From positions 70,726,523-70,790,522 of the forward strand of contig OY997589.1 in NCBI GenBank assembly GCA_963921825.1: a stretch of DNA of 64,000 bases, given 5' to 3'. Position numbers and translations under genes: made by a program. Under the pieces are notes generated by a model. That model was not told the DNA's origin. It saw only the letters and a list, made by a program, of their open reading frames with translations, and made no database searches. This stretch comes from Erodium maritimum (taxonomy: Eukaryota > Streptophyta > Magnoliopsida > Geraniales > Geraniaceae). Positions 7,021 through 64,000 of the stretch are shown here, piece by piece. Every line of letters starts with the position of its first letter. Position 1 is the first letter of the stretch.

Positions 7021-7030
7021 TAAGTCCCGA

Positions 7031-7192
7031 CACATGCGTCATCAACATAACAACATACGACAACTACTTTCTAATGGGATTATCACACTAGACTATGTTA
7101 AGTCAAAAGATAATATCTCAGATCCATTAACAAAATGTTTACCTAGAGAGAAAGTTGAAACCTTATCGATGGGAATGAGCTTAAGGCCGTAA
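7031..7192 (+). pseudogene. Ty1/copia RNase H C-terminal fragment
   Basis: The plus strand encodes HMRHQHNNIRQLLSNG and then LDYVKSKDNISDPLTKCL, the standard end of copia polyproteins, closing with a natural stop. It is in the opposite orientation to the copia remnant just left of it, so the junction near 7021-7030 marks a rearrangement or a separate insertion. Confidence 0.8.
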
Positions 7193-17661: not shown

Positions 17662-17900
17662 TGTTGCTGGAAACAGAGTATAGAAAATGAATAATGCATT
17701 GAGAGATTAAATATTTGGAAACCCGATACATTCAGGGTCTTTGTAGAGTCTTATTTATAGTAGAAGACTAAACAGAAAAGGAAGTAACAACTGAGTGATC
17801 TCATGCCTATAAATCAGACACAAGATCGTTACAATCAAAAATAGCAAATAGACTTATTCAACAAGTATTAAAACGCAACGGACAAAGGTTAAGTCCAACA
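17662..17900 (-). repeat. copia 3' LTR
   Basis: 239 bases; on the element strand TGTTGGACTT...CCAGCAACA. It contains a TATA-like ACTATAAATAAGAC on the minus strand. A polypurine tract (ATGGGGGTGAA on the minus strand, about 17901-17911) lies directly inside it. Confidence 0.95.
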
Positions 17901-19531: not shown

Positions 19532-19862
19532 TGGTTGCTCGGTTTCAGGGCTTCGACTCCCAACTCCTGTTTGTTATGTTGGAGTAGTTTGCTCTGTGGT
19601 TGCAGGTTGGGATTGGACTGGAGTGGCGGGTTCATCGCTGGTGCTTGTTAATTTTTGCTTCTCAGGTTCATCTTCCCAGCATACTTCAAAAAAGTTCTGG
19701 CTTGCGTGCACTTCTGGTTGCTAATATTAGTCCCAGTCCCAGCCTTGTTTTTCTTCGAACACAGCGTCTCGATGGATCACCGGCTTCCTTGTGTTTGGAT
19801 CAAAGAAACAGTACGCTTTCGACCCTGTTTCATAGCCAACAAATACTACAGGGGTACTACGA

Positions 19863-21091
19863 TCATCCAATTTTTTTTAAAGGAGTCGTTACCTTCAAGT
19901 GAGCCAAGCATCCGAAGACTCTGAGATGATAGACTGAGGGTTTTCGTCCATGCCAAGCTTCATACGACGTCATGTTCTTGAGGCTTTTGGTTATGGCTCG
20001 GTTGAGCAAGTACACTGTTGTAACCACCGCCTCGCCCCAGAAGTGCTCATGCATATTTTTTCTTTTGAGTAGGCTTCTTGCAGTTCCTACTATCGACAGG
20101 TTCCTTTGCTCAACAACTCCGTTCCGCTGAGGTGAATTTGGGGCTGTGTAGAAGTGTTTGATCCCTGTCATGTTGCAAAAATTCTCAAATGGCTTTGATC
20201 TGAACTCGCCTCCCCGATCACTCCTGACACCTCTGAGGTTCTCATCAGCGTCCACCTCAGCACGCCTCATGATCTTTTCAAAACAGGTTAGAGCCGCGTC
20301 TTTTGTTTTCAATAATGCAACCCACATAAATCTTGATAAGTCATCCACGATCAATATGAAGTACCTGTTACCTCCGATGTTGGCTGGTGTGATCGGACCA
20401 CACAGGTCGGTGTGCACAAGCTCCAATCGTTTCTCAGCTCGGAACAACGTTTTCTTAGGGAAACTGAGTCTCCTCTGTTTTCAACAACGCATGAATCGCA
20501 CAGTTTTTTAGGTGCTACAATCCTCGAAAGACCTTTCACCAGGCCTTCCTTCGACATGATCTCCAATGCATTAAAATTCACGTGCCCACACCGAGCATGC
20601 CACAGCCAATGATCTTATTCCAATCTAGCAAACAAACTTACAGGCACAATGCAATTTAGTTTCAAAGCATATAATCTATTTCTAGCTTTTCTGACCTTGA
20701 ACATGAGGTTGCTCTGTTGATCGAAAACGCTGAGTGTGCCCTTTTCAATTTCGATCCTGCAATCGTTCTCGTCGAGCTGACCCAAGCTGATGATGTTTCT
20801 TCTTAGCTTGGGAATTAAATAGACCCCTGTCAGAACTCTATGATCGTCATTTAACCCTTCAAACAAAATGGATCATCGTCCTTTAATTTCAACAAGTGAT
20901 CCATCCCCAAATCTCACGGCTCCATGTACCTTCTTGTCTATGAATGAAAACGCTTCTTCTCTTCTGGTCATGTGGTTACTGGCTCCGGTATCCAAATACC
21001 ATATATCTACTCTTCCCTGTTTCGTTTCATTCTGCACAGGAATCACACTTTCCTCATTAAGCATTACATACTCACTACCTGTGACTGCCAT
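19863..21091 (-). pseudogene. copia protease, GAG-pre-integrase and integrase
   Basis: Protease: IWYLDTGASNHMT near 20970-21010, active-site DTG intact. GAG-pre-integrase: about 20500-20866, containing NIISLGQLDE and, across a stop, LWHARCGHVNF. Integrase: core from about 20410 with LVHTDLCGPI, then SDRGGEF and PQRNGVVEQRN (catalytic D, D, E pattern). Breaks include stops at 20615 and in the SVSLRK region near 20450. It would cut and join element cDNA into the genome. Confidence 0.9.
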
Positions 21092-22024
21092 GAACAGGGC
21101 AGGTTCATCGTCATCGATTTGCTCAGTAGAAAAATTCGCTTCCTCACGTCGACCCCTTTTTCACTCAGACGCAAAGTGTCCAAGTTCTGAGCAGGTATAT
21201 CACCTCACTCTACTTCTGTCAACCCTCGGCCTTGGAGACGACGTGCGCCAAGGCTGGTTTCTTCTTCTTCCTCGCGATGGACTTGCCCATCTTCCTTGAT
21301 TCTTAGGTGGACTTTCCCACCTCCTGTTCGACCCTTCTCCGGTTCTCCCCTGTTTCGACATTGCCTCCCATTGTGTCCTTGTGAGTAGAAGCTCTCCTCC
21401 TTCCGATTTTGACTTTCTTCCTTTGAGTTAATACTCGAAGGCTTTCAGTCTTCCTACTGCTTCAGACATGGACATGCTTTCCACGTCTCCCCACTGCTGA
21501 ATTGTTCCAACAATTGGCAAGAACTTGTCAAGAACAGATTCAAAAAAAAAATCGACGACCTGGGAGTCAGGCAGCTCCAAGTCAAGGGCTCTCATCTCAC
21601 TTACGAGATTCGACAATTTTCCACTGAAACTGGAAATGGTTTCATCTTCTCCCATTTCAAGTCTGTTGAAGTCCTTCTTCAAACACTTGATATTTAATTT
21701 CTTCACCTGGTCCTCTCCTACGTGCATTTTTTCCAAAACTTCCCACGCCTCCTTGGGCGTCTTAGTGTGTTTTATGGACTTGAGAACCAGTTCAGGGACA
21801 GATTGCGCGATCACAGCTAAGGCGCCTTGATCCCTTTCTTCTCCGACTGATTCGTCGCCTTCGACCGCTCCCCACACTCCCAGTGCCTTCATCATCGCCA
21901 TCATTTGGAAGCTCCAGATCCCATAGTTAGTCTCGGTCAACATTGGGTATGCCAAACCCATACATCCCCTTGTTGGTTTCGCAGAACTTCCACTGGTGAG
22001 TTTCTTCGGACTACTTTCTTTCAT
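21090..22024 (-). pseudogene. copia gag with damaged zinc knuckle
   Basis: Starts with ATG at 22024, only a few bases after the primer site. The gag/UBN2 core shows LTETNYGIWSFQM near 21900-21940 and then EAWEVLEKMHVGEDQVKKL. A TAA at 21428 ends the frame after 198 codons; homology goes on past it. In the CCHC knuckle near 21170-21215 (TCSELGHFASE) both the first and the last cysteine codons are now TGA stops. It would be the nucleocapsid precursor. Confidence 0.9.
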
Positions 22025-22039
22025 GGCTCTGATACCAAG
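22021..22039 (-). other. copia primer-binding site (initiator Met tRNA)
   Basis: On the minus strand, TTGGTATCAGAGCCATGA follows the 5' LTR directly. TGGTATCAGAGC is the standard complement to the 3' end of plant initiator-Met tRNA. The ATG of gag lies at the end of this motif. Confidence 0.9.
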
Positions 22040-22278
22040 TGTTGCTGGAAACAGAGTATAGAGAATGAATAATGCACTGAGAGATCAAATATTTGGAAAC
22101 CTGATACATTTAGGGTCTTTGCAGAGTCTTATTTATAGTAGAAGACTAAACAGAAAAGGAAGTAACAACTGGGTGATCTCATGCCTATAAATCAGGCACA
22201 AGATCGTTACAATAAAAAATAGCAAATAGACTTATTCAACATGTATTAAAACGCAACGGACAAAGATTAAGTCCAACA
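22040..22278 (-). repeat. copia 5' LTR
   Basis: 239 bases, about 95% identical by eye to 17662-17900. It carries the promoter for the element and is followed on its strand by the primer site. Confidence 0.95.
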
Positions 22279-22283
22279 GGTTG

Positions 22284-22555
22284 GGACTTCTTATTGAAGC
22301 TTGGGAGGAGACACATGGTTGGAACATCGGTATCCCGACAGTATCGGTCAAAATAGGATGCCCGTGAGGAGTAGCAATAGCAGAGGTGCACCGTGGACGG
22401 GGGCGGATGGAGCACTAATAGCTTCGTGGTTCGGGCCACACGCTTAGACCTAGTAATTTTGTGTGAAGGCCGCGACGGAGGGAAGAAGGATGGAGCTCTC
22501 GGATGATCCGATGCCGGAATCAAATTCGGTGAAGAGGAAGAGCCGCTGATGCTCT
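22284..22555. other. host segment between copia and PIF insertions
   Basis: Unique sequence left between two insertions; removing them joins it to 17657-17661 on the left and 24699 on the right. A short open stretch (WWWLGLLIEAWEE across the copia site) is seen, with no family match. No firm feature. Confidence 0.35.
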
Positions 22556-22558
22556 TTA

Positions 22559-24695
22559 GAGCATGTACAACGGGCCGGCCCTCGCCCCCGACCCGCGCGC
22601 GCGGTCTGCAGCCCCTGGTCCGCCCCGTTGTGGGCTGGAAAAAACGCGGTCCACGACCCTGAAACACGCGGCCCTCGGTTCGTTCCTCGCCCCTCGCTCC
22701 TCGATCACGGTTCGGGCTCGCGCTCCCTGCTCCGCGGCCCTGCCTGACATCCCTCCTATCGCCAGCCGACACGTGGCAAGCCGACTGTTGTCAAACGGTC
22801 GACAACGGCTATAGTTTTTTTAATTAAATCAAAACAATTTAAAACCTATAAATACCCCAACATCATTTTTTTCACACCCATTCTTCAATTTCACTCTTTC
22901 ATTCTCACTTTCTACTCTCTAATTTCCAAAATGTCCGACGATGAGGTTATGTCCGACGTTGAGGTTCCGACATACGAGGAGCTGGCTACCCGAATGCCGA
23001 CGTATGAGGAGATGGCAGCCCAACTGCCGACATATGAGGATATGGAAGCCCGAATGCGGCCAATTGAGCGACGACTCCGGTAGAGGATTGAGAGGAGCAT
23101 GCAGAGAGCAATGCCAAGGATCGAGAGGGCCATCCGTGGGGAACCAATGCGGCAAGAGATTAGCAGAGGTCGTTCTGAACCCCACAACCAATTGATGATG
23201 AACTATTTTGTCGAGCAACCCGTGTATGGACCTGATATGTTTAGGTGTCGGTTCCGTATGTGCAGACCACTTTTTCAATGGATTATGGACGCGGTCAAGG
23301 CTCACGACAAGTACTTCGTTCAGAGGCCCGACGCGGCCTCACGGACGGGCTTATCAACGGAACAGAAGTGCACCGCCGCGATACGGATGCTTGCGTATGG
23401 GTCCTCAGCTGATTCATTGGACGAAACTCTACACATTGGGGTAAGCACCATACTTGAATGTTTACGTAAGTTTTGCAAGGCCATCATTGAGGTATTCGAA
23501 GCCGAGTATGAGCGTACACCCACACCGGCTGACATGCAACGCTTACTCCGAGAATGGTACAGCCGAGGGTTTCCCAGAATGACGGGGAGTCTTGACTGCA
23601 TGCATTGGACGTGGAAGAACTGCCCAACCGAAGACCAGGGAGGCCATGGACGGGGAAGTCACCATGGGGACAAGACGGTTATGCTTGAAGCTATAGCGTC
23701 CCGTGATTTATGGATTTGGCATGCGTTTTTCAAGATGGCTGGCTCGAACAACGACATCAATGTCCTCAACCACAGCCACTTATTCCAAGACGCTTACTAC
23801 GGCTGTGAGCTAGCTGTGGAGTACGAGATCAACGACCATCAGTACGAGCGACCTTATTACTTGGTGGACGACATTTACCCAACATGGGCACAGTTCGTGA
23901 AGACTATTCGGCATCCCTCCGAGCCCAAAGAGAAGTTGTTTGCTAAATGCCAAGAAGGTGTTCGGAAAGACATTGAAAGGGCTTTTGGAGTACTTCAAGC
24001 AAGGTGGCACATCATTTCCCGTCTCGCTCGTTCTTGGAGCCCACACCTTTTTGCTGATATCATGCACACTTGCATCATTCTACACAACATGATTTTAGAG
24101 GATGAGTGCGACCGGCACGAGTATGGGGATGAGGAGTTGTTGTACCTGCAACCTCCAGAAATGCCGAATTGGACACCACCGGAACGATGGCACCACAGAG
24201 GGCCATTGGAATACCAGCAACGAGTTTCTTGCCAACAAAGTGTCACAAATCATGAGACCCACCATCAACTACAAAATGATCTTATGGAGCACTTATGGGG
24301 TCTATATGGAGCTGGTTTCCTTGACGACGAGTAGTCGTTTGTGCTCTTGGAGCTGGTTTTTTGTGGGTTGTATTACAAGGGGATCAATAAAAGTTTAACT
24401 TACTTTTTATTCGTGTTCAATTTTTTAATTGTCATTAATTATTTTTTTTCCAAAATTGTTTAAATTATAAATAATTTAAACGGTTTCTGATAAAGAATTA
24501 AATAAAACAGCAAAATATCAATTAATAATCCAGTCAGCATCCAGTCAGCACAGGGCCTCAGCCCCAGGGCCTCAGCAGGGCGTCTCCATTGCAAAACACC
24601 CACTATTCTGCAGCCCCATGGCCTCACTTTTGTCCAGTCAGCACAAGGGTCTCAGACCCAGGGCCTCACTCAAGGCCTTTCTGTTGTACATGCTC
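22559..24695 (+). mobile_element. PIF/Harbinger DNA transposon, TSD TTA
   Basis: Terminal inverted repeats GAGCATGTACAAC (22559-22571) and its complement (24683-24695) are flanked by TTA on both sides (22556-22558, 24696-24698), the target choice of PIF/Harbinger. The 2137-base element holds one transposase gene; no second (Myb-like) gene is seen, so movement would need that partner from elsewhere. GC-rich subterminal sequence is on the left, and GGGCCTCAG repeats lie near 24550-24680 on the right. Confidence 0.95.
22931..24334 (+). pseudogene. PIF/Harbinger DDE transposase, one in-frame stop
   Basis: From ATG at 22931 the frame stays open except for one TAG at 23081-23083 (residue 51), giving 467 codons overall. 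The N-terminus has three copies of a PTYEE/D-type repeat. The DDE nuclease domain shows LDCMHWTWKNCP (first Asp, near 23590), AGSNNDINVLNHS (second Asp, near 23740-23780) and RKDIERAFGVLQARW (Glu, near 23965-24005). All three catalytic residues are present. The next ATG after the stop is 23099, so a shortened protein could be made. Its role is cutting and pasting this family; the single stop suggests recent decay. Confidence 0.93.
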
Positions 24696-33485: not shown

Positions 33486-35665
33486 TTAAAGACCAGCGGT
33501 GTATGGAACACCGGTTGCTGGCAACCAAGAGCGGCCGGCAATGAGGGTGGTGACGGTAAACTTAGAGGCCTCGGTGGAGCTGGTAATAACCTTGTACCCT
33601 TTCCACTTGATCCTGTACCTCGTACTCGAACCCGGACCCGTGTTCTTGTACTCTCCGTAGTAGAGCGTGTCCTGAGCAAAACTAGTGTTTCCCCACGGGG
33701 ACCACCCAAGCGGGCTCACCAACGCATCCATGTACGTCTTCAGGAACACCGTGCGCGAGTACTGCTGCCAGGGCCGCCCCAGGTACGTCTTGAACGCCCG
33801 CACCACCGGCTTCAGGTCCGCCGCCGCCAACACGCGGCTGTTGTGGATTGCGATGCCCGTGTTCTGGAACGGGTCGTTGCGCCCCTGCGCCGTGATCATG
33901 TTGGCCTGACCCTTGACCGGCCGCCGGGCGTAGATCACGCAGTTTTGGAACACCACTGCGGCGTTTCCGAAGATGAAGTCGACTGTCCCGTAGATGTAGC
34001 AGTTGCGGTAGAACTGGCGTTGCGAGTGCACCATGAGTGTGTCCTGATACCCTATGAAGGCGCATTGATAAAATACCGAAAGGTCAGACCCGGACCGGAG
34101 CGCCACCGCCTGGCCCCTCAGGGGACCGGCGGTGTTCCTGAATGTGATCCCACGTGCCATGAAATGGAGCCCATCTATCCCTGTCAATACACACTATAGC
34201 TAGTTAACAATCACTTCATTTTTTTATTTTAAAAAAATAACTTCATTTCCACATTTATTTTAATGAACTTATTTTTTTATATATATAAGATCGTAAAAAG
34301 TTCAATTATGGAACTATTAAAGTAGTTAATTAAGGTTCTTGATATTATACTTTGATTTTCAATAGGGGTCCCTTCTAAAATAGGTTGAGTGGCCAAAATG
34401 AGAACTTTTATATCTCATGACCAAGAGTTAATTTTCAATTCTTATTCTTTTTTTAATTAGTAATACATTATTTTCGGTACCTAGCTAAAGTTTAAAATGA
34501 TAAGTAAGAGTTTTCTCATTTTAATAACATATTATTTTATTTTGATAACCAAAATATATCAAGAAACCTATATGACAGAATAGTCACATATTATTTGTTG
34601 TCTCCTATGTAATATTACTTATGAATTGATCACATATTATTAAAATATATTAACCTATATATTATCAATACTAAAAATGTGTTACTAATATACAAGAAAT
34701 ACTAAAATAAATAAATAAGCCATATATTAATATCTTAATCTTAAGCTAGATTTGAAGTAATTACCTGCGGTGGCAGAGTTGTAGGTGGTGTAGCCGGCCT
34801 TAACGTTCCTGTTACTAGTAATGATGGTGTACTTGACGCCATCGCCGACCAAAATAACATTGTCATTATTATAAGCCACCTCAATATTTTCCTTATAAAC
34901 CCCTTTCTTTACATGGATAATAAACCTCCCGGACGTCTCCTTCCGCTTTGCCGCCGCGTCAATCGCCGCCTGAACCGTCCCGTAGTTCCCCGACCCGTCC
35001 TTAGCCACCACAACATCGGCCTCGGCCGTCAACGCCGTGGAGGCCAACAGCCGCCGCTCGCTCTCCCACAGCCAGGTGGGGAAATAAGTGTGGTTCTCAA
35101 CGGCCAGCAGGACGCCGTTGACGGCGAGGCTGTTGCTGATGAGCTGGGACACGTTGTTGGCGACGATGGGGGCCATGAAGCCGGTGAGGTTGAAGTCGTC
35201 GGAGCCTTGGGTGCAGGTGTGGATGTTGGTGAGGGCGGTGCTGAGCCACGTCTGGGCGTCGAAGGTGGTGCACGTCTTGTTGAGGCTCTCCAGGGTCCGG
35301 TTCAGGTGGAAGACGGTGTGCTCGTATAGCTTCAGGCAGTCGGACCAGGCGGCTCTCTGTTTCGGGTTCTCGCAGCTCGGCCCGTACTGGACGACCTCGC
35401 GCCGCGCGTTGAGCGTACGCTCCATCGCCAGCTCAACCATCATGTTCCGGAACTCGGACCGGTGGTTCGGAGCCAAACGGTGCCCGTTTTGGCTCATGAA
35501 GAAGTTGCATGCGTCCGGGTGCGGCGTCTTTCTACACCACCATGTTATGTTGCCCCGGTGGTGAGCCCTGACGACGACGGAGGAGTTGGAAGCTACAGAA
35601 CAATAACACAAGGTTGTGAATATTATTGTCACCAACCTCAATGTTGCGGCCATGTCCGTAGACAT
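33486..35665 (-). CDS. pectin methylesterase, type I (PMEI-PME), secreted
   Basis: Two exons on the minus strand: 34765-35665 and 33486-34180, joined by a 584-base GT/AG intron; 531 residues, normal for type I enzymes. A signal peptide is followed by a PME-inhibitor-like domain (about residues 40-200) with its conserved cysteines, then the processing motif RRLL and the catalytic domain. Signature regions are GYTTYNSATAG, QAVALR, GYQDTL, DFIFGNAAVVFQ and YLGRPWQQYSRTV; the catalytic Gln, two Asp and Arg are all present. It removes methyl groups from homogalacturonan in the wall; subtilase cleavage at RRLL in the Golgi frees the enzyme (family knowledge). The intron position in the GYTTYNSATAG region is typical of the family. 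No defects seen. Confidence 0.95.
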
Positions 35666-36029
35666 TATTATGTGTTTCTTTGGATATTTTGGTTTGCGTT
35701 ACTATGGATGATCTGACATATAAAGGTCTTGGATCATCAAGATATTTAGAACCTTAATTGTTAAGCTGTGTTTTGACTAATGGATTTGACAAAATATAAA
35801 ATGCAAATGCAAGTTATTAATTACCAAGGTTTGGGCAATGTTGTACCTTTACTTGTTTCCAAACATTGCTTAGCATGCGTATGTTTTCATGTCCACACAT
35901 GCAAAATTGTTTATTTGGTTTTCGTTGAAATTATGATATCCTCCAAATCCAAATGTTCACACGGTGAAACAATCAATTAATGCATCAAAACCGCATTTAA
36001 TGTATCAAATTTGATCTGATTCATCTTTA
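35666..36029. other. PME upstream region
   Basis: Read on the minus strand, a TATA-like CCTTTATATG lies at 35718-35727, about 55 bases before the start codon. No other motif can be supported. No other gene seen. Confidence 0.4.
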
Positions 36030-40321: not shown

Positions 40322-40735
40322 TTTTTTTTTGAAACAAGTAGATGAGGTATTGTATTACTATAAAATGTTAACCTTACAGGTTAGGGCATAACTGTCCAGG
40401 ATTCCAGATATTTGTCCCAAGCGACCGTAGTCCACCAGACGCTCATGGATCCGTAGAAATAGTCTGATTTTTCTTGCAGAATCAAACTCAAGATGAGTTC
40501 CCCTTACCGACCTTTCAAAAGTACCAAACAGAAAAAAAAACTAGTCCAACAATCGAAAGGACCTAACCAAACCAAACTAGAAATGTAAAAGACATAAAGC
40601 AAGCTTGAAATGAGTGCTCTAATTACGGCTTTCCCGAGACTTCCCAGCACTAGCAATCCCGGGTCTGTGGGTATAGACCGTAATCGGACCCTCCCACCCC
40701 GCTGGGTCTTCTCATGCTTCCATAGGAGGCTGTGC

Positions 40736-40913
40736 AACACCCCGCCGTGCCAGACCCGGGCCCCACGCGCGGCGATGTTAGGTCTGCAGCCCAACACACC
40801 CCAACCCCTCAGGTGTATTGTCCACAGACAAATACCAATCTAGGTTGTTGGTGAGACTTGAACCCAAGACCTCACCCTTTATAGCATTTCCTTGAGTGAT
40901 GCTATCACCAATT
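40736..40913 (-). mobile_element. tRNA-derived SINE, reverse copy
   Basis: Reverse complement of the unit at 40914-41107, sharing AATTGGTGATAGCATCACTC and the box-B-like GGTTCAAGTCTCACC. It abuts the forward copy head to head at the stem-loop ACCAATT-AAGCTC-AATTGGT (40907-40926). Confidence 0.7.
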
Positions 40914-41107
40914 AAGCTCAATTGGTGATAGCATCACTCAAGGAAATGCTATAAAGGGTGAGGTATTGAGTTCAAGTCTCACCAACAACCTAGGTTGGTA
41001 TTTGTCTGTGGACAATACACCTGAGGGGTTGGGGTGTATTGGGTTGCAGACCTAACATCGCCGCGCGTGGGGACCGGGTCTGGCACGGTGGGGTGTTACA
41101 AAAAAAA
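40914..41107 (+). mobile_element. tRNA-derived SINE, forward copy
   Basis: AAGCTCAATTGGTGATAGC resembles an RNA polymerase III box A and GAGTTCAAGTCTC (40968-40980) a box B, spaced as in tRNA. The body ends GGGGTGTTACAAAAAAA, an A-rich tail. A third copy lies at 58815-59004. Promoter activity is inferred from these boxes. Confidence 0.72.
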
Positions 41108-41546
41108 GTGCACTTTTTTGTTACAAATATGAGGGGGCACACTTGAAGTCCAAAGCACCGAGACGAAAGAATGATGGAAGTCCGAAAGCAATTTGAAAAT
41201 AGATGGGGCGTGAGGCATAAAATCGCCCAAGACTGACGAGTCTGGAAATAACGGACATGAGCCAGATAGAGATTTGCAAAGACGAACTTCTCAAGAGATC
41301 CTGAAATAGGAAAAGAGATGTCTCGGTCCCCACAAAGACGACCATATCTCTTGTCCATAAGGTGGCGTCCATGACCAAGGCCTACATGGAGGTAGCCATG
41401 ACAAAGGCCCACGTGAAAGCGACCATTGACAAAATTAGACGATACGACCATACTTTCACATAGGCGACGGTGGAAACGACAAGGTAAGACAAGAACAAAG
41501 ATATTAAGTACACCTAACGGCCCAGAACTTTCCGGTAACCTCCAAA

Positions 41547-48680: not shown

Positions 48681-48855
48681 AATCAAGTACTTCTGAAGTG
48701 AATTCAACTTTTTCTCTCCATTATAAGAAGTTGGTAATAGTCAGGATTGGAACAATGAAGATGAAGGATGCCTAATTACCAGGTAAAAAAACTATAATTT
48801 ATAGAGATACAATAAGCATTTAAATAGGCAACAAACACAAATAACATAATTTAAA

Positions 48856-49763
48856 GGGTAAACTTCACCTCACTACCATAAAAATACTTGTGTTTCGTCT
48901 CACTACTCTCCGCCGTCAACTTGACATCCATTTTTGGATGAAAAATGGTAAAAATTCCAAAATAGCCCTCACTAACACTCAAATTTTCAAAAGCATGCCA
49001 TTAATTTTCAAAAATTCTTTCTTTTTATTTATTTATTTTATATAAATCGGTTTTTCATTTAAAAAAATTCAATTTATTTTAAAATAATCAGATTTTATTT
49101 TTTAAAATTTAGTTTGTATTTTCAAAAGTCAAATTTTATTTCTAAAACCATTTTTTAAAAATCATATTTTATTTATTTTTTCAAAAAAATCAGTTTTTTA
49201 AATTTTTTTTTTCTAAAGAAGGGACATATTTGAAAACTGTTTTTTTAAATAATCATTTTCAAAAAATAAAATCTGAAATTTTAAAATAAAAATTGATTTT
49301 AAAAAATATAAAATGTGATTTTTAAAAATAAAAGCTAATTTTTTTAAAAAAAATTGATTTTTAAAAATAAAATCTAATTTTTTAAATAAAAACTAAAATT
49401 TAAAAAATAAAATATGATTTTTTTAAATAAAATATTAATTTTTAAAATAAAAACTAATTTTAAAAAATAAAATCTGATTGTTTAAGAATAAACTGATTTT
49501 TTTAAAAAAAAAAACTGATTTATATAAAATAAATAAATAAAAAAGAATTTTTGAAAACCAATGACATGCTTTTGAAAATTTGAGGTTTAGTGATGGGTAT
49601 TTTGGACTGTTAACTATTTTCCATCTAAAAATGGATGTCAAGTTGACAATGGGTATGAAAGTGCAATTAAAAGTTTCGTTACGGTAGTGAGGTGCAACAA
49701 AGTTTGGTTAGGGTAGTGAGACAAAACGCAAGTATTTTTAGGGTAGTGAGGTGAAGTTTACCC
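48856..49763. mobile_element. Mutator-type foldback MITE, TSD TAATTTAAA
   Basis: Begins GGGTAAACTTCACCTCACTACC and ends with its complement; perfect 9-base TSDs TAATTTAAA at 48847-48855 and 49764-49772, the Mutator hallmark. Complementarity continues inward over more than 200 bases per arm (including TTTCAAAAGCATGCCATT and TATTTATTTATTTTATATAAATC), so the 908-base unit can fold almost end to end. AT-rich, non-coding. Related to the larger element at 52216-58146. Confidence 0.93.
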
Positions 49764-49772
49764 TAATTTAAA

Positions 49773-51334: not shown

Positions 51335-52005
51335 TTTTATTTTTTGATAAGCGATAAATTTATTAAGGCAAACGTTCTACAAGACAGTAAAACGTTGCAA
51401 AAACGATCCTAAAAAAGGATCATTTTTCAGACCATAACAACTACAAAGAGCAAACACAACCAAATAAACCTAACCCAGGAAGAGAGACACAGGTCACGTC
51501 CTCCTTGTCTGCAGCCTATCTGGGTTTAAACATAAAAACCGATTGGAAACCACAATAGGGGATAAAGCTTTTCCTGAAACTGCAGGGTCATCTTTGTCTT
51601 GACTAACCCCACCATCCTCCTCTACCTCTAGAGAAGTAAAATGAGTGAGTGCCAAGGAGCAAAAGTCAACAGAATTTTTCCCAACTTTCTGGTGATAACT
51701 CAACTCGCCCAAACTATCCTTCTTAGCGATGTCAACAATGAAGCTTCATGGAATACGTCCTTTATCAGTAGATTTCTTTGCTCTTGTCCGATAAATAACA
51801 GTTGGAAGGGCACTCACCTTTGACTGTCTTTTTTTTGGGCGTCCACGTTTTTTAGGTTGAGCAGATACACAACTTTGAAGAGAAGGCCAAGCAATAATGG
51901 ACAAAGTATTATTGGAAGCAACGTCGGTTTCCTCCTGCGTTTCCATACCCGAGCCCGATTGTCTAAACCCATGCGAATGGGATGAAAAAGGAATTGGGCT
52001 ATGCA
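51335..52005 (-). mobile_element. 5'-truncated LINE, minus strand, AT-hook-like tail
   Basis: Minus-strand 3' end TTAATAAATTTATCGCTTATCAAAAAAT. The frame 51746-52006 carries PKKRGRPKKRQ, an AT-hook-like motif found near the end of plant LINE ORF1. The remaining sequence lacks RT motifs. It sits in the 3' region of the hAT element. Confidence 0.55.
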
Positions 52006-52439
52006 TACGAATGCAAATACAAAATAAAAGTTAAAGTTATGGATACATTTTAGGGTAAATTATGTTAACATACTCCGTACTATACGAGTTTAACGAATAA
52101 ATACCCCAAAGTTATTTCTTAACGAAAACATTCCCCGAACTAACACTTAGTAACAACATCCTCCATTTCATCCATTTTCCGCTCATTTATTATTCATTTT
52201 CCATAAATTACAAAAGGGTAAACTTCACCTCACTACCCTAAAAATACTTGCGTTTCATCTCATTACCCTAGCCATACTTTGATGCACCTCACTACCCTAA
52301 CTATCATTTAAATTACACATTAGTACCCACCGTTATTTTTTGGATGGAAAATGGTCATGTGCTTCGCACATGACCATGCTTTTTCTTAAAATGACAAATA
52401 TACCCTCTCTAATACCATAATTTCAGATATAGCATGAAT

Positions 52440-52770
52440 GATCCATCTCTAACTTCATTCTCATCAAACCCTTGAAGTCATCTCATCGAGTCAGACGTAG
52501 AGCTCACCAGATTCACGGCAAGACTCCTTCTTTCTCTGTCTTTGCCATCTATGGGTGATCCCTCCTTCTCCAGGAGAGGCTTGTTTGGTGTGATCTCCTC
52601 CGATTCGAGCTAGATATGGGTTTTGGCCTCATGTACTGCTGGTGCTATGCAACCTGTTGACGAGCGTGGAGGGTCGGCGGAGGTGATTCAGGTGGTGGAG
52701 GAGGAAGGGAGGGCCCAACGCTTCTCCACTGAGCAGATCCATCTCCGGCGAGGTCCTCTTCATCTCCCTA
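52440..52770 (+). other. GC-rich non-TIR segment of MULE B
   Basis: Higher GC than either flank, with a leader-like C/T-rich start and an open frame (MASCTAGAMQPVDERGGSAEV, 52623 on) that runs into the retroelement. It continues beyond the retroelement from 57260. It may be a captured host exon, but I do not recognise the protein. Confidence 0.35.
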
Positions 52771-52775
52771 GTCTC

Positions 52776-53224
52776 TGTCAGGATTCAAAGTATTTCTTGG
52801 CCACTAATTAAGCCATGTGGGCTTAAGTTCACCAGCCCAACTCTGGAGAATCCGGCCCAAAGAAGAGAGAGACATCGTTTCGGAAAGAGGGAGCACGCCT
52901 TCTTCATGAGTATGACGTGCATGCTCGAGAAAGGGACATGGAGGACAAATGCAGCTAATGGGTATAGAGCTCAGCCATTCACAAGAGGGCATCTGAGGGC
53001 ACAAAGGGGACCATCTTTTCTTGTAGAGGTATTTTTATTGTATGAGGTCTTGTTTTAGGGTTTAACGAGAGTATTGTAGTGAGGAGGCAGACCTTGAAGC
53101 AAGGTGAGGTGAAGCTTGGAGCAAGCTCACGCTCTTTCTGTAATTCACCACTTATCGTTCAATTTCAAATTTAGATTCAGTTGTTCTTTCATATTTGTTT
53201 GGGTTTATTTTCGGAATCCTTACA
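52776..53224 (+). repeat. 5' LTR of gene-carrying retroelement
   Basis: 449 bases, TGTCAGGATTC...GAATCCTTACA. By eye about 30 differences from the 3' LTR (about 93% identity), so the insertion is not recent. Confidence 0.93.
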
Positions 53225-53225
53225 A

Positions 53226-53237
53226 TTTATCAGAGCC
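53226..53237 (+). other. primer-binding site (initiator Met tRNA type)
   Basis: TTTATCAGAGCC follows the 5' LTR by one base and matches the initiator-Met primer site TGGTATCAGAGC at its last ten bases. Confidence 0.8.
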
Positions 53238-53252
53238 TACGATTCAACCACC

Positions 53253-54002
53253 ATGGAGGAGACGAAGCTGATTTATCAAATTTCATGGATGGAAAGGGAG
53301 ATTGAAAGGTGTAACCGAATCCAGGAGGATTTGATTACTCATTTTGGAAAGAAGGAGCAAGAGATTGGAATAGTTCCTTGGTAGCGGGAACGAGGTGTCC
53401 GAGACAAGTTGAACACCATCGTGAATCGTATCGACGATTGGCGTTCGTATGAGTATACAATGAGAGGAGCTCTTGAGGTAAAGAAGCAGCGACAATCTCT
53501 AATGGTGGCTAGACTCAAAGCAAGGAGGGAGGCTGAACTCGAAGTAAAGAGGGAGGCTGAACTCCGGGCAAAAATGGAGACGAAAATGGAAGCCAAGTTA
53601 TTGGAAGAAGTACAAGCGAAGTTTGAAGCTAAAGTAGAGAAGAGTAAGTTGCATCAACAAGAAAGGGAGAAATTGATGGAAAAGGATCGAGTTTTATCTC
53701 CACTCCGAGACTTGTTTGTAGTTGAACCACAAAACAATGGCTACTACATGTATTTATACGGTCTCACCATTTTATTTGACAAAGAGGGAAAGCATGATGA
53801 GGATTTAGGGATATTGGAGGAAAGGGGAATGGAGGTGCTAATACGCAACTCTGGTAAAGGGCTTGAAAATGGAGTGAATGAGTACTGGGTTAGTATACCA
53901 GTGGTTGGATTTCTTTATGAATATAACCTGTTCAACTCAAGGTCTAAGAGAGTAGCAGAGACAACAAAACGAGGTATCATCATTTCAATTCTTCATGAAT
54001 AG
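53253..54002 (+). pseudogene. coiled-coil frame, first ORF of the retroelement
   Basis: From ATG 53253 the frame covers 249 codons with a single TAG at 53382-53384. Residues about 85-150 are a Glu/Lys/Ala-rich helix with ARREAELEVKREAEL-type repeats, predicted to coil. The C-terminal third is globular-looking, with no known motif. By position it could be a gag relic or a further captured gene; neither can be shown. Confidence 0.4.
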
Positions 54003-54206
54003 AAATTTACATTGTGAGCTTCAATTTATTTTACAAGCTTTGCACATCTGTTTTACTGGAACTATGAAATTGCCTACTGGAATTGGGACATTATGTTTTG
54101 TGGAAGTATGGAGTGGGAGAGATGGTATTTGTAGGTTGGAAAAATTATCGGGGTTATTAAAAGGGGCTGAGTATGAGTTCTTGAATCTAGTTAAGGAAGA
54201 AAATGG

Positions 54207-54881
54207 GTGTCAGTGAGGAATTTGTTGTATACTTGTCAAGGAATTGATGAAATTTATTTCAAAATTGGTAAAAACGTTGATGGGTGCAATTTTACTTATT
54301 TGTTGGAAGTTGGTGGTGACAACTCGGATTTCATAAGGGCTAGAGAGATTGATAGCCAGTTGGTAGCTACTGGACTTGTTCCAAATCTATTTCAGGTTGC
54401 TATTATGTATCCTAAGAAGAAGTTGATTTCCAAGGAGAATAGGGAGGATGTTAGGAGGGAGATCCGAATAATGTATCAATTGATAGGTCACAAGAAAATT
54501 GTGAATATCAAAGGAGCTTATGAGGACCCTCTATATGTTCTTATTATGATGGATATGTATTGTGGGGGTATGAATAGTGATTTTAAACCTATGAATTTCT
54601 TGTTGGTTGACAAAGGAGGGGTTCAGTTCTTGAGGAGTTATTGGGTTTCAGTCTCAATATCTGCTCCTTGGAATTTTGAAGTTGTTGTTAAGCTAATGAG
54701 GCACTTGGTTCCTTGCCTACTAGTAGCTGAAGCCATTCTTTCATATGAGTTTATACATAAACTAGTTGGTGTGCTGAACTGTGATGTGTTAGGGGTTAGA
54801 ATTGAAGCAACTAGAACTATTCATGAAATGGGAGTTAGTACCAAAAAGAAGAAAGAGAGTGGGGAATGTGGGTACATCTAA
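54207..54881 (+). pseudogene. captured calcium-dependent protein kinase fragment (plus ARM-like tail)
   Basis: Open for 224 codons. Residues about 70-120 match the CDPK N-lobe: KKKLISKENREDVRREIRIM (alphaC region), then GHKKIVNIKGAYEDPLYVL. The sequence then jumps from MDMYCGG to SDFKPMNFLL, the counterpart of RDLKPENFLL in the catalytic loop, so about 35-40 residues are missing and the catalytic Arg-Asp is changed to Ser-Asp. Residues 155-224 (for example VLGVRIEATRTIHEM and ESGECGYI) resemble an armadillo-repeat protein; this part is tentative. Not a functional kinase. Confidence 0.7.
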
Positions 54882-55364
54882 TCTGATTTAATAAGCTTCC
54901 AATGGGCTGTGGAAGAATTATGGTTATAATGCTTTATGAGTTCGGGTGGTTGTTTAGAAAAAAGGGAATGTATAATGAAGAAATGGTCTTGAAATTGAGT
55001 AACAATGGTTCTAATGGAGGGGCTGAGAAGACATGTGGGTTTGTGATGTTTGTGAAAATTATGACTTGTTGCATTTTGAAAGGGGGTGGGTGTCTATAAG
55101 GAAATATGAGATGGTGGATAAATTGACAGTGGTCGGTGAGGGTGTAGCCGAAGTGTAACCCATAAATGTGGGAGTATGAGGTATTTTAATATGAAATTGC
55201 AAGAGAGCTTGGCACTCCAATTGTACCAGACCTTATCGGAGGGAAAGTTGAAGACTGATAGGCTGGGGCCAAACCAGATGTTTTATAGAGAAGAAGATGG
55301 TGTTGTAGGGACTGATACTGAAACTTGTGAGAATTTAAAGGGAGGAACTAAGGAAGCAAATATT

Positions 55365-56090
55365 GAGAAACAATCCTGGGAGGTATTGGAGAATGTTGTA
55401 GCCATATATTGTGGGAGGCCGGTTGGTACAGTGGCAACCAAGGATCCAAGAGTCAATCAGCCGTTTAATTATTATCCGAATTGGAGGAAAACAGTAGACT
55501 GCTACAACCTAGGACAAGAGTTGATATCTGCAAGTTTTAAAGCTGGAAGTGTGTCTCATGATGGAAATAAGTATGAAGAAGTTCTTGGTTAGGATTTTTG
55601 GGAGCAATCTATAGGTCATGTTTTTAATGGTTGTGGCGGATCATCCTATTGAGGGCTTATGGAAAGATCATTGGTGCCTACTATGCATTATAAGGAAGGG
55701 TCGTTATTCAGATGGAACATAAACTGAGTGTAAGCTTGTATTTGGCTGATGAAATTCATATGTTTTATATTCTCTTTGTTATGGGTGGTCCTTGTACGAT
55801 AAACCAGTGCATAGGGATTCATGGTCACCCTATTGAGATCCTAAATTTAGTTCAAGCAACTCTTGAGAGTTCTTACAAGAGAGTAACGGTCAATGGAGGC
55901 TCAAAAGATTTTGTGATAACTATCACTAATAGAATGAGTGCTCTGCTCTTCCATATCAGAGAAAATTGTTAGGTATATATAAAGAAGATCAATGAAGTAT
56001 ACTGGTACAAGACAAAAGAATATTCAATGGTTGTCACCAACCAGTTCAATATTTACCTAGAGCAAATTCCTCTTTGGCTAATGGATTGGG
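55365..56090 (+). pseudogene. captured alkaline/neutral invertase fragment
   Basis: EKQSWEVLENVV, YCGRPVGTVATKDPRVNQPFNY and, after a deletion of roughly 35 residues, WRKTVDCYNLGQELISASFK are plant alkaline/neutral invertase (GH100) sequence. After frameshifts follow ILLRAYGKIIGAYYAL (55650 on), GIHGHPIEI (55817 on) and [15 protein letters not shown] (55981-56028), all collinear with the enzyme. Stops at 55590 and 55970 and frame changes kill it. The cytosolic or organellar enzyme splits sucrose. Confidence 0.85.
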
Positions 56091-56584
56091 CTTTCGATGA
56101 AGGATTTGACAAGCATAAGCAACTTGATGCTGAAGTTCCCCGAAGGTATATTTATAATGGCCATGTTGATGTATACATGTGTTTGTGGGTTGAAGATGAA
56201 CCTGAGAAGTACCAATCTCAGTTCACTCAAGCATTCATGCAAGGTGTTGGGGTTGGAACTGATGTTACCCAAAAGGAGAACCATGCCAACAAAAATGGTA
56301 AACTTAGTACTATTGCAGCTACAAGGAGCCATGTTATTATTATTGGGACAAGAGAGCATGGGAATGAGTTTGAAGCCTTTGATGTTAACCCAATTGTTAG
56401 CAAAAATCTGGGAAAGAGAGATTGGCTTGGTTTTATGGAAAAAAAAAATCATGAAGTTGTTACAGAAGTGAGCGCTGCTACAAAGACGGGGCTTAAGGGT
56501 CATAAAGATGGATTGAGGATACCAAAAGTGCTACACTTACTGCCATTAATTTTTATGCTAAGGAGGAACATGTCCATGAAATGA
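56027..56584 (+). CDS. chimeric frame: invertase tail, RPL5 and SRP54 fragments
   Basis: One 185-codon frame without stops spans three host proteins. Residues 1-21 ([19 protein letters not shown]) are invertase. Residues about 24-74 ([30 protein letters not shown]) are 60S ribosomal protein L5/uL18. Residues about 86-145 ([41 protein letters not shown]) are the 54-kDa subunit of the signal recognition particle, GTPase-domain end. After residue 150 the sequence is not recognised. Whether it is translated is unknown; an open junction of three genes is at least striking. Confidence 0.75.
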
Positions 56585-56591
56585 CCAAAGA

Positions 56592-56804
56592 GATCCATAA
56601 GGAGATAGCAGCCAGGGAGAAGTAATTGTTCAATCCAATGCAAAAGTCTGGGCATCCTTCTTTAGCATATTTTGTTTAGGTGATAAGAGCTTCAGATAAG
56701 CCTGAGGAAGCTCTTGTGCATATTCTTGTGGAAGATCCAACTTATGATGTTTCAGGCATATGTAAAGAAGACTTGAGGACAAGTCTTATTGAAGAGGAGA
56801 GCAT
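56592..56804 (+). other. unassigned 3' internal part and polypurine tract
   Basis: Between the chimeric frame and the 3' LTR a possible further captured piece reads SDKPEEALVHILVEDPTYDV (56695 on), not identified. The run GAAGAGGAGAGCAT (56791-56804) is the polypurine tract right before the LTR. Confidence 0.5.
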
Positions 56805-57254
56805 TGTCAGGATTCAAAGTATTTTTGGGCCACTAATTAGGCCATGTGGGCTTAAGTTCACCCAGCCCAACTCTGGAGAATCCGGCCCAAAGAAGAGAAC
56901 GACATCGTTTCGGAAAGAGGGAACACGCCTTCTTCATGAGTATGATGCACATGCTCGAGAAAGAGACAGGGAGGAAAAATGAAACTCATGGGTACAAAGC
57001 TCATCCATTCACAAGGGGGCATCTGAGGGCATAGAGGGGACCATCTTTGCTTGTAGAGGTATTTGTATTGTATGAGGTCTTGTTTTAGGGTTGAACGAGA
57101 GTATTGTAATGAGGAGGCAGACCTTGAAGCAAGGTGAGGTGAAGCTTGGAGCAAGCTCACACTTTTTCTGTAATTCACCACTTATCGTTCAATTTCAAAT
57201 TTAGATTCAGTTGTTCTTTCATATTTGTTTGAGTTTATTTTCGGAATCGTTACA
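56805..57254 (+). repeat. 3' LTR of gene-carrying retroelement
   Basis: 450 bases, TGTCAGGATTC...GAATCGTTACA, followed by the TSD copy GTCTC (57255-57259). Confidence 0.93.
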
Positions 57255-58363
57255 GTCTCTCAGCCCATATATGCAAGCTCGAATCAGATTTAGAGTGTTC
57301 TCAAATTCTTGACTTTCTGCCAAAAATTCCAGTTTTAGCTTTGACAGATTTTCAATTGGGGTAGATGTAAGCCGAAAGATGAATAAATTATTAATGAATG
57401 AGAATTTTTTACTTTTGTTTATCAGATGAATTTTTTTCTCTTCTTCTACTGGTTTGGTTTGAGTTTTTGATGAAACTCTTTTGTACCTGTATAGTGTTTT
57501 GGATAGATAGGAAGCATAGATATGGTATAAATGCAGTATATTGAATTGGAAGAAGCTCGCTAGTGACGGGTTTTGTTTTTTTCCTTGTTAATAGGTCTTC
57601 TGGAATGTTTATAGCTGGAGTGTGAGATCGTCATCTGATAATGAATATAGTTTTTCATTCTATTGATAAATTTGGGTTCTCGTTATGATCTTCTCGTGTT
57701 CTTCGTCAAAAGAAATTTAATTACAAAAAAATTCAAAAGAACTCAGATTAAAATGATTTTTTTTACTGAAAAAATATAATTTATAAAATAAAATATGATA
57801 TTTATAATAAAAATAATTTTTAATAATTAAAATCTGTTTTTTTTTAAAAAAAACTGATTTTCTAAACAAAAAATCTGATTTTTTTTTAAAATAAATTCTG
57901 ATTTTTATAAAATAAAAAAATAAATTGAAAATCAATGGCATGCCTTTGAAAATTTGGCTGTTAGTAAGGGGTATTTTGGACTTTTAAAGTGTTTGGATGG
58001 AAAATGGATGGAAAATAGACATAACCTAATGGTAGGTACTAAAGTGCAATTAAAATCATAGTTAGGGTAGTGAGGTGCAACAAAGTATGGCTAGGGTAGT
58101 GAAACGAAACGCAAGTATTTTTAGGGTAGTTAGATGAACTTTACCCATTACAAAACTATCCGTAGTGTTACAATCCTAAAACCAACTTCAACCCTAAATC
58201 CAACCCTAAATCTCTCTCCAAACCTAAATCTAACCCTAAAAATGGATGAAAGGGGGATGTTATTACTAAGTGTTAGTTTGAGGTATGTTATTGTTAAGAA
58301 ATAACTTTGGAGTATTTATCCGTTGAACGCATATAGTACGGGGTATGTCAATGTAGTTTACCC

Positions 58364-58660
58364 TAAATTTTATACCATCATCCAGAATTTGTAATTTTTC
58401 CATCTTAGCCTCCAAAGCAACCGTGGTGAGGAGTGTTGGTGGACTTTTCAGCAAATCTTTAGTACAAATCAAGACTTGTACAATCTCCATAGCCAAGAAA
58501 CTCATGAAATCTATGAGTATCCTACTCCTACCACTAAAAGAACATTCACTTGAAACTATTGTAATTGGAATCGTTAGAACATCTCTAGCCGTTCTTGATA
58601 AAATGTGGTATCCGTTGGCATTCGCTGTCCACCAAGACAAGACTTTTTAAGAAGTATAAT
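58364..58660 (-). pseudogene. hAT transposase C-terminal dimerisation domain
   Basis: Reading the minus strand: SWWTANANGYHILSRTARDV, LTIPITIVSSECSFSGRSRI, then LICTKDLLKSPPTLL, the hATC dimerisation domain of plant hAT transposases. The end is cut by the MITE at 58363. It is collinear with the upstream hAT part at 61440-63000, so both belong to one element. Confidence 0.85.
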
Positions 58661-58814: not shown

Positions 58815-59004
58815 ACCAGTTTGGTGATAGCATCACTCAAGGAAATGCTATAAAGGGTGAGGTCTTGGGTTCAAGTCTCACCAACAACCTAGGTTGGTAT
58901 TTGTCTGTGGACAGTACACCAGAGGGGTTGGGGTGTATTGGGCTGCAGACCTAACATCGCCGCGCGTGGAGCCCGGGTCTGGCACAGCGGGATGTTACAA
59001 AAAA
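58815..59004 (+). mobile_element. tRNA-derived SINE, third copy
   Basis: Closely matches 40914-41107 from TTGGTGATAGCATCACTCAA to GGATGTTACAAAAAA, with box B GGGTTCAAGTCTCACC. The 5' box-A start (AAGCTCAATTGGT) is replaced by CCAGTTTGGT, so it is slightly truncated or mutated. It sits inside the split hAT element. Confidence 0.72.
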
Positions 59005-59029
59005 GTGCAGGATTGGCTTGGGGACAGGC

Positions 59030-61405
59030 TGTCACGCCCCAAATTCAGTGGAACCGAACCTGGAACGCGAACAGTAAAACAATAAAACCATTTTCAAACC
59101 TTTTAAATAAATCGCTTAAAATCACCATTTAGTTAATCAAAATAATAATTTACAACTCAAAGCACGACCAAACAAGCGGACCAAAGACATGGCGTACGTC
59201 GCTAAACTCAAAAGGAAACCCGGACTCCCGCTCCCAGCTCTTCAAGCTTCGAGAGCTCCCCTAGTCCGTCTCGCGACCAGTACCTGTAGGAAAAGCAGCT
59301 AGGGGTGAGAATTCGCTCACCACCACGGATACCAGACTGACTACGACATACTAGCAGACAATGCCGGAAACACCAACAACCACCCAAACGCCGGGGACTA
59401 CTATCCCCAACTCAAGTAACCCGACTGACACACAAACTGTTAATTTCACCAACCAACTCAACATTCGGACACGTAATGTAGACCCGACACAGCGGTTACG
59501 ACCTCCACCAAAGACTCAAAAGATAACCACGCAACACCCAAGATCACAAAGGATCGCACTCCAAACAAGATCACAAAGGATCGCACTCCAGCTGCTCAGT
59601 GCCGGTTGCTAACCGGCTGGGCTTGAGCCTGCCCCACGCAACTTCCCCCGGTCTCTGTCGGGCCAGGCGGTCGACCTGTTAGCGATATATAACACAATCC
59701 TTTTCCAATAGCTAGTCTGAAGGGGAACAACCCTCCATCGCCGAAGAATGCACAACTTTACCGGTGGTTAACCCGGAAGGTGAGCCAACCCCACGACACG
59801 TGGCCACATGACCCCTTTCTTGTCAGGTGGGCCCCCAACCTCGTCTGAAAAATGCACACGCGCGCGACCACGGGACCTCTTTCTTGTCAGGCGGGCCCCC
59901 AACCTCGGGCAGAGACAGTCCACAACCAAAGTTCAACAAACAGCAACAACACAGGTTCAACAACCCCACGGGCACTCATGGCCACCCAAGACACCAACAG
60001 TAAAACACGGGCACAACAACCCCACGGGCACTCATGGTCACCCAAGACACACCAACAGTAAAATACGGGTTCAACAACCCCACGGGCACTCATGGCCACC
60101 CACAACAATACAATCATCCTCCGGGCATAACCAAATGCCTCCAGTATTTCTAATATCAATACGTTCACTGCTTCTACGACACTACTAAGTGTCACATGCA
60201 TTTCTATTGTTCGATACGTTCCCGTATCATACGACACCACCTGGTGTCGCCTGCCTTTCTATTGTTCGATAAACTTACTTAACCCACGACACCCAAGTGT
60301 CACATGCATTTCTACTGTTAACTTTCCCTAGTCAGGGCCGAGATCCGGCTACTTTTCCCTACCTCGTACGCTTTCCGAAAAGTTCCAACCAAGCTCTGGC
60401 GTGCTCACGATCACTCGCCTAGCTTTCCCTTTCCTCTGTCGATGGCACGATCTAATAAGAACACAATTTAAAACACTTTTAAGTTCGCAGGCATAAATTG
60501 AATTTTAATACACTTGACGCTCAAATGCAACCCCGACAATGTCGATCACTCCCAAACTTCCCAATTACTCGACATTTCCGATAATGGACCCGGAAAGGCC
60601 CGATTCGCCCGGCTTGGCGAATCTGCCCGGGTTTTGAAAACGTCCCTCGGGGCTCCGAAAAATTCCATTTTCGTTTCCATCATTCCTAATTAAAATCACG
60701 AATTCCAACGTACTTGGCGGAATCAATTTCCGAATTCTCACGAATTACAAACCCTAATTCATCATTTCTCAATACACACGTGACACTCAAAACTAATCCA
60801 TCTTAAATACACTGAGTAGCATCTTAATAGACCAAAAAAAGAGGTAATACACCTCCTTATCCTTTTAGATTGTCTTGTCATTTTCCCCCAAAACTACCAA
60901 ATGGTGCCACTGCATCTCCGTGAAGATGGACCAATTGATGATCAATTCACAAGATGAGCGTCAATGCCATTTATGATGAGCAATCATTGCTTTATCATAA
61001 GTAAAAAGAGAATGGAACATACCTTCTCACACGGTGATGCTTTCGCCGACCAAAAACTATGCTTCCATTGTAATACCAAGTCCAGAACATTTTCAGCCGA
61101 GAACTCACCTCAAGAGCCTGAACAATCACCGAAAGAAAAGAAAAAACAAAGGAAAGGAAAGAGCTCTCTGCTCCAATTCTCACGGTGCCGCCACCCACCT
61201 CAAGTTCCTCTTGCTTTTATTTTGCTCAAATTACATAACACCACCACTTGTGTGAAAAGTGGCAAGTGGGTCGACATCGGGGTCAACTTAAGTCCGATAT
61301 GACCCTCGTGGTCAACTTTAGGTTCATTTAGGTGTCTGTCCAAAATTTTTAAATTTTCCTGTTTTTCGCCGATTTGACTGGCGTTGACCGGGAGCGGTTC
61401 TTACA
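59030..61405 (-). repeat. gypsy solo LTR 3, reverse orientation
   Basis: On the minus strand it runs TGTAAGAACCGCTCCC...TTTGGGGCGTGACA. Its last 600 or so bases follow solo LTR 1, including the GAGCAGCTG / GTGCGATCCTTTGTGATCTTG part and the GGTGTCTTGGGTGGCC repeats (here 59950-60105). No internal domain is present. Immediate flanks (CAGGC, ATTAT) do not match, so the TSD was lost or one end is rearranged. Confidence 0.82.
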
Positions 61406-63718: not shown

Positions 63719-63905
63719 TTTCATTATAAAACTTACAACAATTCTAATCTAATAGTTCATTTCAGTTCATCTTAAACACTAAATATATTAACTCGTATCA
63801 TATCAAAACACAAAAAACAGTTTTCAATACACATCAATTTTTAAAACCTACAACCGATCTAACATAACAAATCAATCAGTTTATAAACCAAACTCATTTC
63901 TTTTT

Positions 63906-64000
63906 AGGTAAATTATGTTGATATACCCCGTACTATACGCGTTTAACGGATAAGTACCCCAAAGTTATTTCGTAACGAAAACATACCCCGAACTAACACT
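63906..64000. mobile_element. MITE A family member, cut by window end
   Basis: GGTAAATTATGTTGATATACCCC and GTACTATACGCGTTTAACGG match the left end of the MITE at 52054 over the available 95 bases. The right half lies outside the window. Confidence 0.75.

Follow-up and report, generated by a model that had tools for sequence, protein, structure and literature searches.

What can fill the interior of a long terminal repeat (LTR) retrotransposon in place of gag-pol, and by what route does it arrive there? The question is raised by an element at positions 52776-57254 of a 64,000-nucleotide stretch of Erodium maritimum DNA (contig OY997589.1, positions 70,726,523 to 70,790,522 of the forward strand; this whole stretch is referred to as the window). 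The element is a decayed, non-autonomous plant LTR retrotransposon, and between its LTRs lie fragments of at least four unrelated host genes; the four recognized encode a calcium-dependent protein kinase (CDPK), an alkaline/neutral invertase, RPL5, and SRP54, all in the sense orientation of the element. We consider it likely that spliced mRNAs were captured by template switching and that the resulting element was copied in trans with its cargo and has since decayed.

Structure and insertion age of the element

The LTRs form a direct-repeat pair that starts with TGTCAG and finishes with TTACA, giving TG...CA ends, and the target site duplication (TSD) on either side, GTCTC, is within the 4-6 bp of LTR retrotransposons. 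The pair is 93.5% identical, with 29 differences (18 transitions and 11 transversions) over 449 aligned bases and a single gapped column besides, corresponding to a Kimura two-parameter (K2P) divergence of 0.068. At substitution rates of 1.3e-8 or 7e-9 changes per site per year, this divergence dates the insertion to approximately 2.6 to 4.8 million years ago. No further copies of the LTR were found in the window by blastn. The internal priming sites are less regular. Three base pairs past the 5' LTR, and preceded by ATT, lies TATCAGAGCC, which we take to be the inner portion of an initiator-Met primer site; the terminal TGG, presumably part of that motif, is missing. The polypurine tract is short, with 11 purines followed by CAT ahead of the 3' LTR. 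A preliminary description of this locus, made from the sequence alone, had called the structure complete, which holds for the LTR pair and the TSD and only in part for the primer site and polypurine tract.

Search for gag-pol in the interior

The interior was scanned against Pfam as 18 sense pieces (8 open reading frames [ORFs] and 10 further pieces) and 8 antisense ORFs, a subset of all ORFs of at least 50 amino acids. No match to gag, protease, reverse transcriptase (RT), or integrase families was found in the sense pieces, and none to retroelement domains in the antisense ORFs, in line with the earlier claim that the element carries no gag-pol. As a positive control, the same scan detected RT in both neighboring elements (4.8e-31 and 1.5e-65). 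With gag, RT, and integrase domains undetected in the scanned pieces, the element is classed as non-autonomous. Weak Pfam similarities in the interior, such as those to DUF481 (0.084), clathrin light chain (0.13), PSMbeta (0.078), and YgaB (0.078), were below cutoffs and were not regarded as real. Rfam gave no match, and PHROGs gave none for two ORFs.

Host gene fragments between the LTRs

The four gene identities proposed in the preliminary description were each recovered well above chance, as was their uniform placement on the plus strand. The CDPK kinase-domain piece matched calcium-dependent protein kinase 3 in the PDB with an E value of 1.5e-11, and the other matches among the 43 PDB chains listed were to other kinases, at 4e-4 or weaker; its match to Pfam Pkinase (1.8e-5) was under the curated cutoff. 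In the printed alignment 26 of 57 residues are identical, and a second collinear flank, scoring only 2.7 bits, suggests an in-frame internal deletion of ~36 residues in this piece.

The invertase was recognized in three ORFs by Pfam GH100, two above the cutoff (1.6e-11 and 2.8e-8) and one just under it (9.3e-5). A stretch of 156 residues, in which X stands for each of two stops, matched all four of the invertase chains listed from the PDB (3.3e-21 to 2e-18). This match, of ~150 residues, is broken by a single gap column and is free of intron-sized inserts, and identity to CINV1 is 50/145. The alignment of the N-terminal part stops near 55580, the remainder to 55622 being placed by position, and this part appears to have lost 32-33 residues in frame, judged from a second flank that is weak (3.8-4.4 bits). 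From its sequence motifs, we assume that the piece is of the alpha type. The intron pattern of invertase genes bears on exon skipping as a source of the deletion. Alpha-type plant invertases are reported to have six exons, with intron phases 0-1-0-2-0 (PMC6995568 and PMC10661998). Skipping any single internal exon of that pattern would break the frame; under the beta pattern, 0-0-1, exon 2 could be left out. The alpha assignment being our presumption, exon skipping may still have caused the deletion.

The RPL5 (uL18) fragment matched PDB chains at 9.8e-12, with identities of 30/51 and 29/51. The SRP54 fragment matched at 2.1e-11 with an identity of 33/79, and Pfam SRP54 gave only 0.1. At the boundary between invertase and RPL5, both alignments meet at codon 56102-56104, in frame and with zero filler, while the join between RPL5 and SRP54 could be placed within ~56220-56285, some 20 codons. 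All aligned cargo pieces (CDPK, invertase, RPL5, and SRP54) are free of intron-sized inserts in comparison with protein chains, as distinct from donor intron positions; to that extent, and no further, the junctions are intron-free as had been proposed. The interior has no 20-mer with at least 17 C/T, and its only A run of at least 7 is at 56439, inside SRP54, so that no poly-A tail marks any join.

Mapped cargo accounts for 1,287 of the 3,580 interior bases, and the other 2,293 have no identity (Table 1); the earlier statement that the inside is host sequence stands for the mapped portion, the rest having no accepted match. Several candidates for the remainder were rejected. An ARM-repeat piece suggested previously (~54633 to 54881) was not upheld, with no Pfam match and only kinases returned when the containing ORF was compared with the PDB. 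A PPR origin of 54195-54415 was also set aside, the PDB match being 0.014 with no stretch passing alone, as were a CREB-binding protein zinc finger for 55027-55155 (E 1.4) and a small RNA degrading nuclease for 56680-56804 (E 1.2).

Table 1. Positions of the element, its termini, and the segments of its interior in the window
Feature	Position	Strand	Remark
TSD GTCTC, left copy	52771..52775	no strand	Flanks 5' LTR
LTR retroelement, whole	52776-57254	+	4,479 bp; interior 3,580 bp (53225-56804)
5' LTR, 449 bp, TG...CA	52776..53224	+	Direct-repeat pair
Imperfect primer binding site, ATT + TATCAGAGCC	53225..53237	+	Adjoins 5' LTR
5' open frame, ATG in ACCATGG, rich in charged residues	53253..54002	+	One in-frame TAG just ahead of 53385; no accepted match
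Stretch upstream of CDPK piece	54003..54407	+	Top PDB match PPR10, E 0.014, not accepted
CDPK kinase-domain fragment	54408..54620	+	PDB match; Pfam match under cutoff
Stretch between CDPK and invertase	54621..55367	+	No accepted match
Alkaline/neutral invertase (GH100), N-terminal part	55368..55622	+	TAG at 55590
Frame change 0 to 2 inside invertase (indel)	within 55581..55645	+	Placed to interval only
Alkaline/neutral invertase (GH100), central part	55643..56101	+	Stops at 55691, 55970
RPL5 (uL18) fragment	56102..56254	+	PDB match
SRP54 fragment	56255..56461	+	PDB match; same frame as RPL5
Stretch after SRP54	56462..56790	+	No accepted match
Short polypurine tract GAAGAGGAGAG	56791..56801	+	3 bp ahead of 3' LTR
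3' LTR, 450 bp	56805..57254	+	Direct-repeat pair
TSD GTCTC, right copy	57255..57259	no strand	Flanks 3' LTR

Origin of the cargo

Sense cargo, the lack of intron-sized inserts, the lack of A-tails at the joins, and a filler-free fusion all fit template switching on spliced mRNAs. In an ancestral element, reverse transcription inside a virus-like particle would have switched from the element RNA to co-packaged spliced mRNAs of CDPK, alkaline/neutral invertase, RPL5, and SRP54, possibly of other genes as well, and then back, in one or more capture events. The fused cDNA pieces would have been left between the primer site and the polypurine tract, replacing gag-pol. The chimeric element may then have been transcribed from its own LTR and copied in trans, cargo included, by the proteins of a relative, and the copy in the window would be a later insertion that decayed afterwards. 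Abnormal switching between unrelated co-packaged RNAs has been described (PMC13317346), and transduced sequences are reported to share, as a rule, the sense of gag-pol (PMC7264820). The preliminary description had also favored switching onto mRNAs, and the sense cargo and the filler-free join between invertase and RPL5 make this plausible, the step itself being inferred. In agreement with what a cDNA origin predicts, sense ORFs of the interior are long: the longest has 228 amino acids and the top four sum to 786, compared with maxima of 150 and 389 in 1,000 dinucleotide shuffles.

Sense and spliced-looking pieces also fit serial read-through transduction, in which an element repeatedly lands within genes or close to them and its read-through transcripts are re-integrated after splicing, one piece per event; read-through transduction has been described as a route of capture in plants (PMC13317346). 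Judging from the layout, such a history would require several events, each placing an internal gene piece between the primer site and the polypurine tract. We rank template switching higher because the pieces appear to be internal parts of four genes lying within both priming sites, and we regard serial read-through as unlikely, if worth keeping in mind. In a third history, an LTR element already devoid of gag-pol would have received separate insertions of processed pseudogenes or of captures by DNA transposons. Plants are known to have Pack-type captures (PMC13317346), and transposons abound in the window, but the joins carry no poly-A tail, one of them is codon-exact and free of filler, and a search of 51500-58500 for repeat pairs of at least 25 bp, direct or inverted, revealed none inside the interior. 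All four genes are in sense, moreover, an outcome with a chance of 1 in 16 if orientation were random. Separate insertions are accordingly very improbable. Least credible of all, to the point of being negligible, is the idea that the protein similarities arose by chance in an unrelated interior, or that the assembly is chimeric: nothing speaks for it beyond the portion of the interior that has no identity, while E values of 2e-11 or better were obtained for four families and an intact TSD and LTR pair enclose the whole.

Copying of the element after capture is suggested by the age of the cargo relative to the insertion. At sites where two RPL5 chains (8azw and 7qiw, which we take to be plant proteins) agree, 17 of 45 residues differ in the element. 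Decay since insertion predicts a residue change of ~7.4%, and the excess has a binomial P value of 9e-9. The divergence of the RPL5 cargo exceeds what the LTR pair can account for, and, on this comparison of sequences, capture probably predates the present insertion. If so, element and cargo were copied together, unless a diverged paralogue served as donor.

Several observations weigh against this account of the element as a carrier of captured mRNAs. The age argument is based on 45 residues and two RPL5 chains, and a diverged donor paralogue would weaken it. Part of the 2,293 interior bases that have no identity could be left over from the element itself. The terminal TGG is absent from the primer site, as described above. 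The antisense strand, too, has longer ORFs than the shuffles (longest, 150 amino acids, P value of 0.001; top four, 410 amino acids, reached by 0 of 1,000), and long ORFs alone therefore prove little. Finally, no sister copy, autonomous partner, or donor gene came to light in the sequence sets compared: LTR-pattern searches of viral contigs and of prokaryote contigs, one each, returned zero matches, two protein queries against viral contigs gave no confirmed relative, and a comparison of the interior with plasmids gave no match.

Reading frames across the joins

An addition compatible with capture by template switching is that the interior once formed one long in-frame chimeric ORF from the ATG at 53253, maintained for a time as in maize Bs1. 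Frame 0 is common to the 5' ORF, the ORF of the CDPK piece, and the first ORF of the invertase, and four joins or deletions (the CDPK deletion, the invertase deletion, invertase to RPL5, and RPL5 to SRP54) are in frame, for which the chance is 1 in 81. Counting the frame-shifting indel of the invertase, four of five are in frame, with a chance of ~0.045, and the far flanks of the CDPK and invertase deletions score only 2.7 and 3.8-4.4 bits. This in-frame count, small and post hoc, resembles by analogy the hybrid ORF of Bs1. Searching ORF by ORF is, in addition, biased towards in-frame neighbors; the frame switches to 1 past SRP54, and at 53956-54216 and 54887-55099 it is in other frames that the sequence is open.

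Stop codons are present in the mapped cargo at 55590, 55691, and 55970, with one more in the 5' ORF. Three stops in 429 mapped codons compare with 7.8 expected at the neutral divergence of 0.208 implied by RPL5 (P value of 0.035), where the counted segments include ~14 codons past 55580, beyond the printed alignment, that hold one of the three stops. The deficit weakens to a P value of 0.094 at a divergence of 0.17 and 0.36 at 0.10, and this test of neutral decay is no more than a hint. A once continuous frame seems to us improbable. A fuller version, in which gag-pol was replaced by a single chimeric frame of ~1,180 codons drawn from four host mRNAs at the least and perhaps from six or more, and in which copying went on for some time with that frame open while a fusion protein was made and selected before decay, is more doubtful still.

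Base composition and neighborhood

The interior (53225-56804) is strongly C-poor and G-rich (C, 12.9%; G, 26.1%; GC skew, +0.34), and CpG reaches 0.34 of its expected frequency. Of 303 sliding segments of 3,580 bp, the 12 with the strongest skew all overlap the element, and the skew of the LTRs is +0.17 and +0.18. Coding-strand bias alone may not explain the skew of the interior, and copying may have brought about a strand-specific loss of C.

On either side of the element lie the arms of an imperfect inverted repeat (52043-52342 and 58020-58373; 84-87%), with related pieces within 48852-49764 and at 63902-64000. These arms were considered as outer ends of one transposon and rejected, as there are no clear ends, no direct repeat of at least 9 bp in the compared stretches, and related pieces elsewhere. 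A repeat of 180-190 bp, 94-96% identical, is present at 40733-41112 (in both orientations) and 58821-59009, and a tRNA-Ala (AGC) is predicted at 59566-59645 on the minus strand. Further away, a copia-type sequence (RVT_2 and rve; 17892-22790, minus strand) contains, at 22026 and likewise on the minus strand, the full TGGTATCAGAGC, which occurs once in the window and is the only other place there with the primer-site motif of the element, and a copia-type gag domain (Retrotran_gag_2, 2.9e-8) is encoded by an ORF at 6579-7070 on the minus strand. A 416-amino-acid ORF at 23084-24331 with Plant_tran and DDE_Tnp_4 domains is apparently a PIF/Harbinger-like transposase, and a pectinesterase gene with a PMEI domain occupies 33489-35698 on the minus strand in two ORFs; these two neighbors, like the cargo, point to a plant host.

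Comparison with known gene-carrying elements

LARD elements (large retrotransposon derivatives) are large and lack gag-pol, with LTRs of several kb and non-coding interiors; the element described here differs from them in its LTRs of 449 and 450 bp, which are too short for that class, and in its partly gene-derived interior. Its kind is already known, as capture of several genes by plant LTR elements has been published (PMC13317346, PMC4717578, PMC3726574, and PMC7264820). The novelty claimed in the preliminary description was in that respect too strong. What remains of it is the gene set: no description of CDPK, invertase, RPL5, and SRP54 together in an LTR retrotransposon was found in a limited literature search, and the combination looks undescribed within the literature searched. 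Alone, the element is one additional cargo-rich case of a known class. If sister copies exist, they would make it a datable record of mRNA capture, with four donors, ordered joins, and cargo seemingly older than the insertion; they could separate one burst of template switching from one-by-one capture and could test selection on chimeric ORFs in such elements.

In rice and sorghum, 672 and 1,343 host genes are reported as captured in full-length LTR elements (PMC3726574), and the present element is like these in holding host genes inside an LTR element. Its resemblance to TRIM (terminal-repeat retrotransposon in miniature) GmaRetroS15 of soybean extends to LTRs, a 5-bp TSD, and fragments of several host genes, which in GmaRetroS15 come from three genes and are intron-free (PMC4717578); in contrast to the gene-carrying TRIMs of that study, which measure 1,172-1,449 bp, it is 4,479 bp long and falls outside their size. 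A close parallel in kind is maize Bs1, likewise an LTR element with fragments of several unrelated host genes between its LTRs, whose cargo is exon-only and formed a chimeric gene (PMC13317346 and PMC4717578). Bs1 is reported to carry parts of three genes, for an H+-ATPase, a xylan endohydrolase, and a beta-1,3-glucanase (PMC13317346), a different and smaller set, as the preliminary description had stated. Unlike Bs1, the Erodium element has four confirmed and different genes, interrupted by stops and a frame shift, and thus one gene more than either Bs1 or GmaRetroS15, for which three each are reported.

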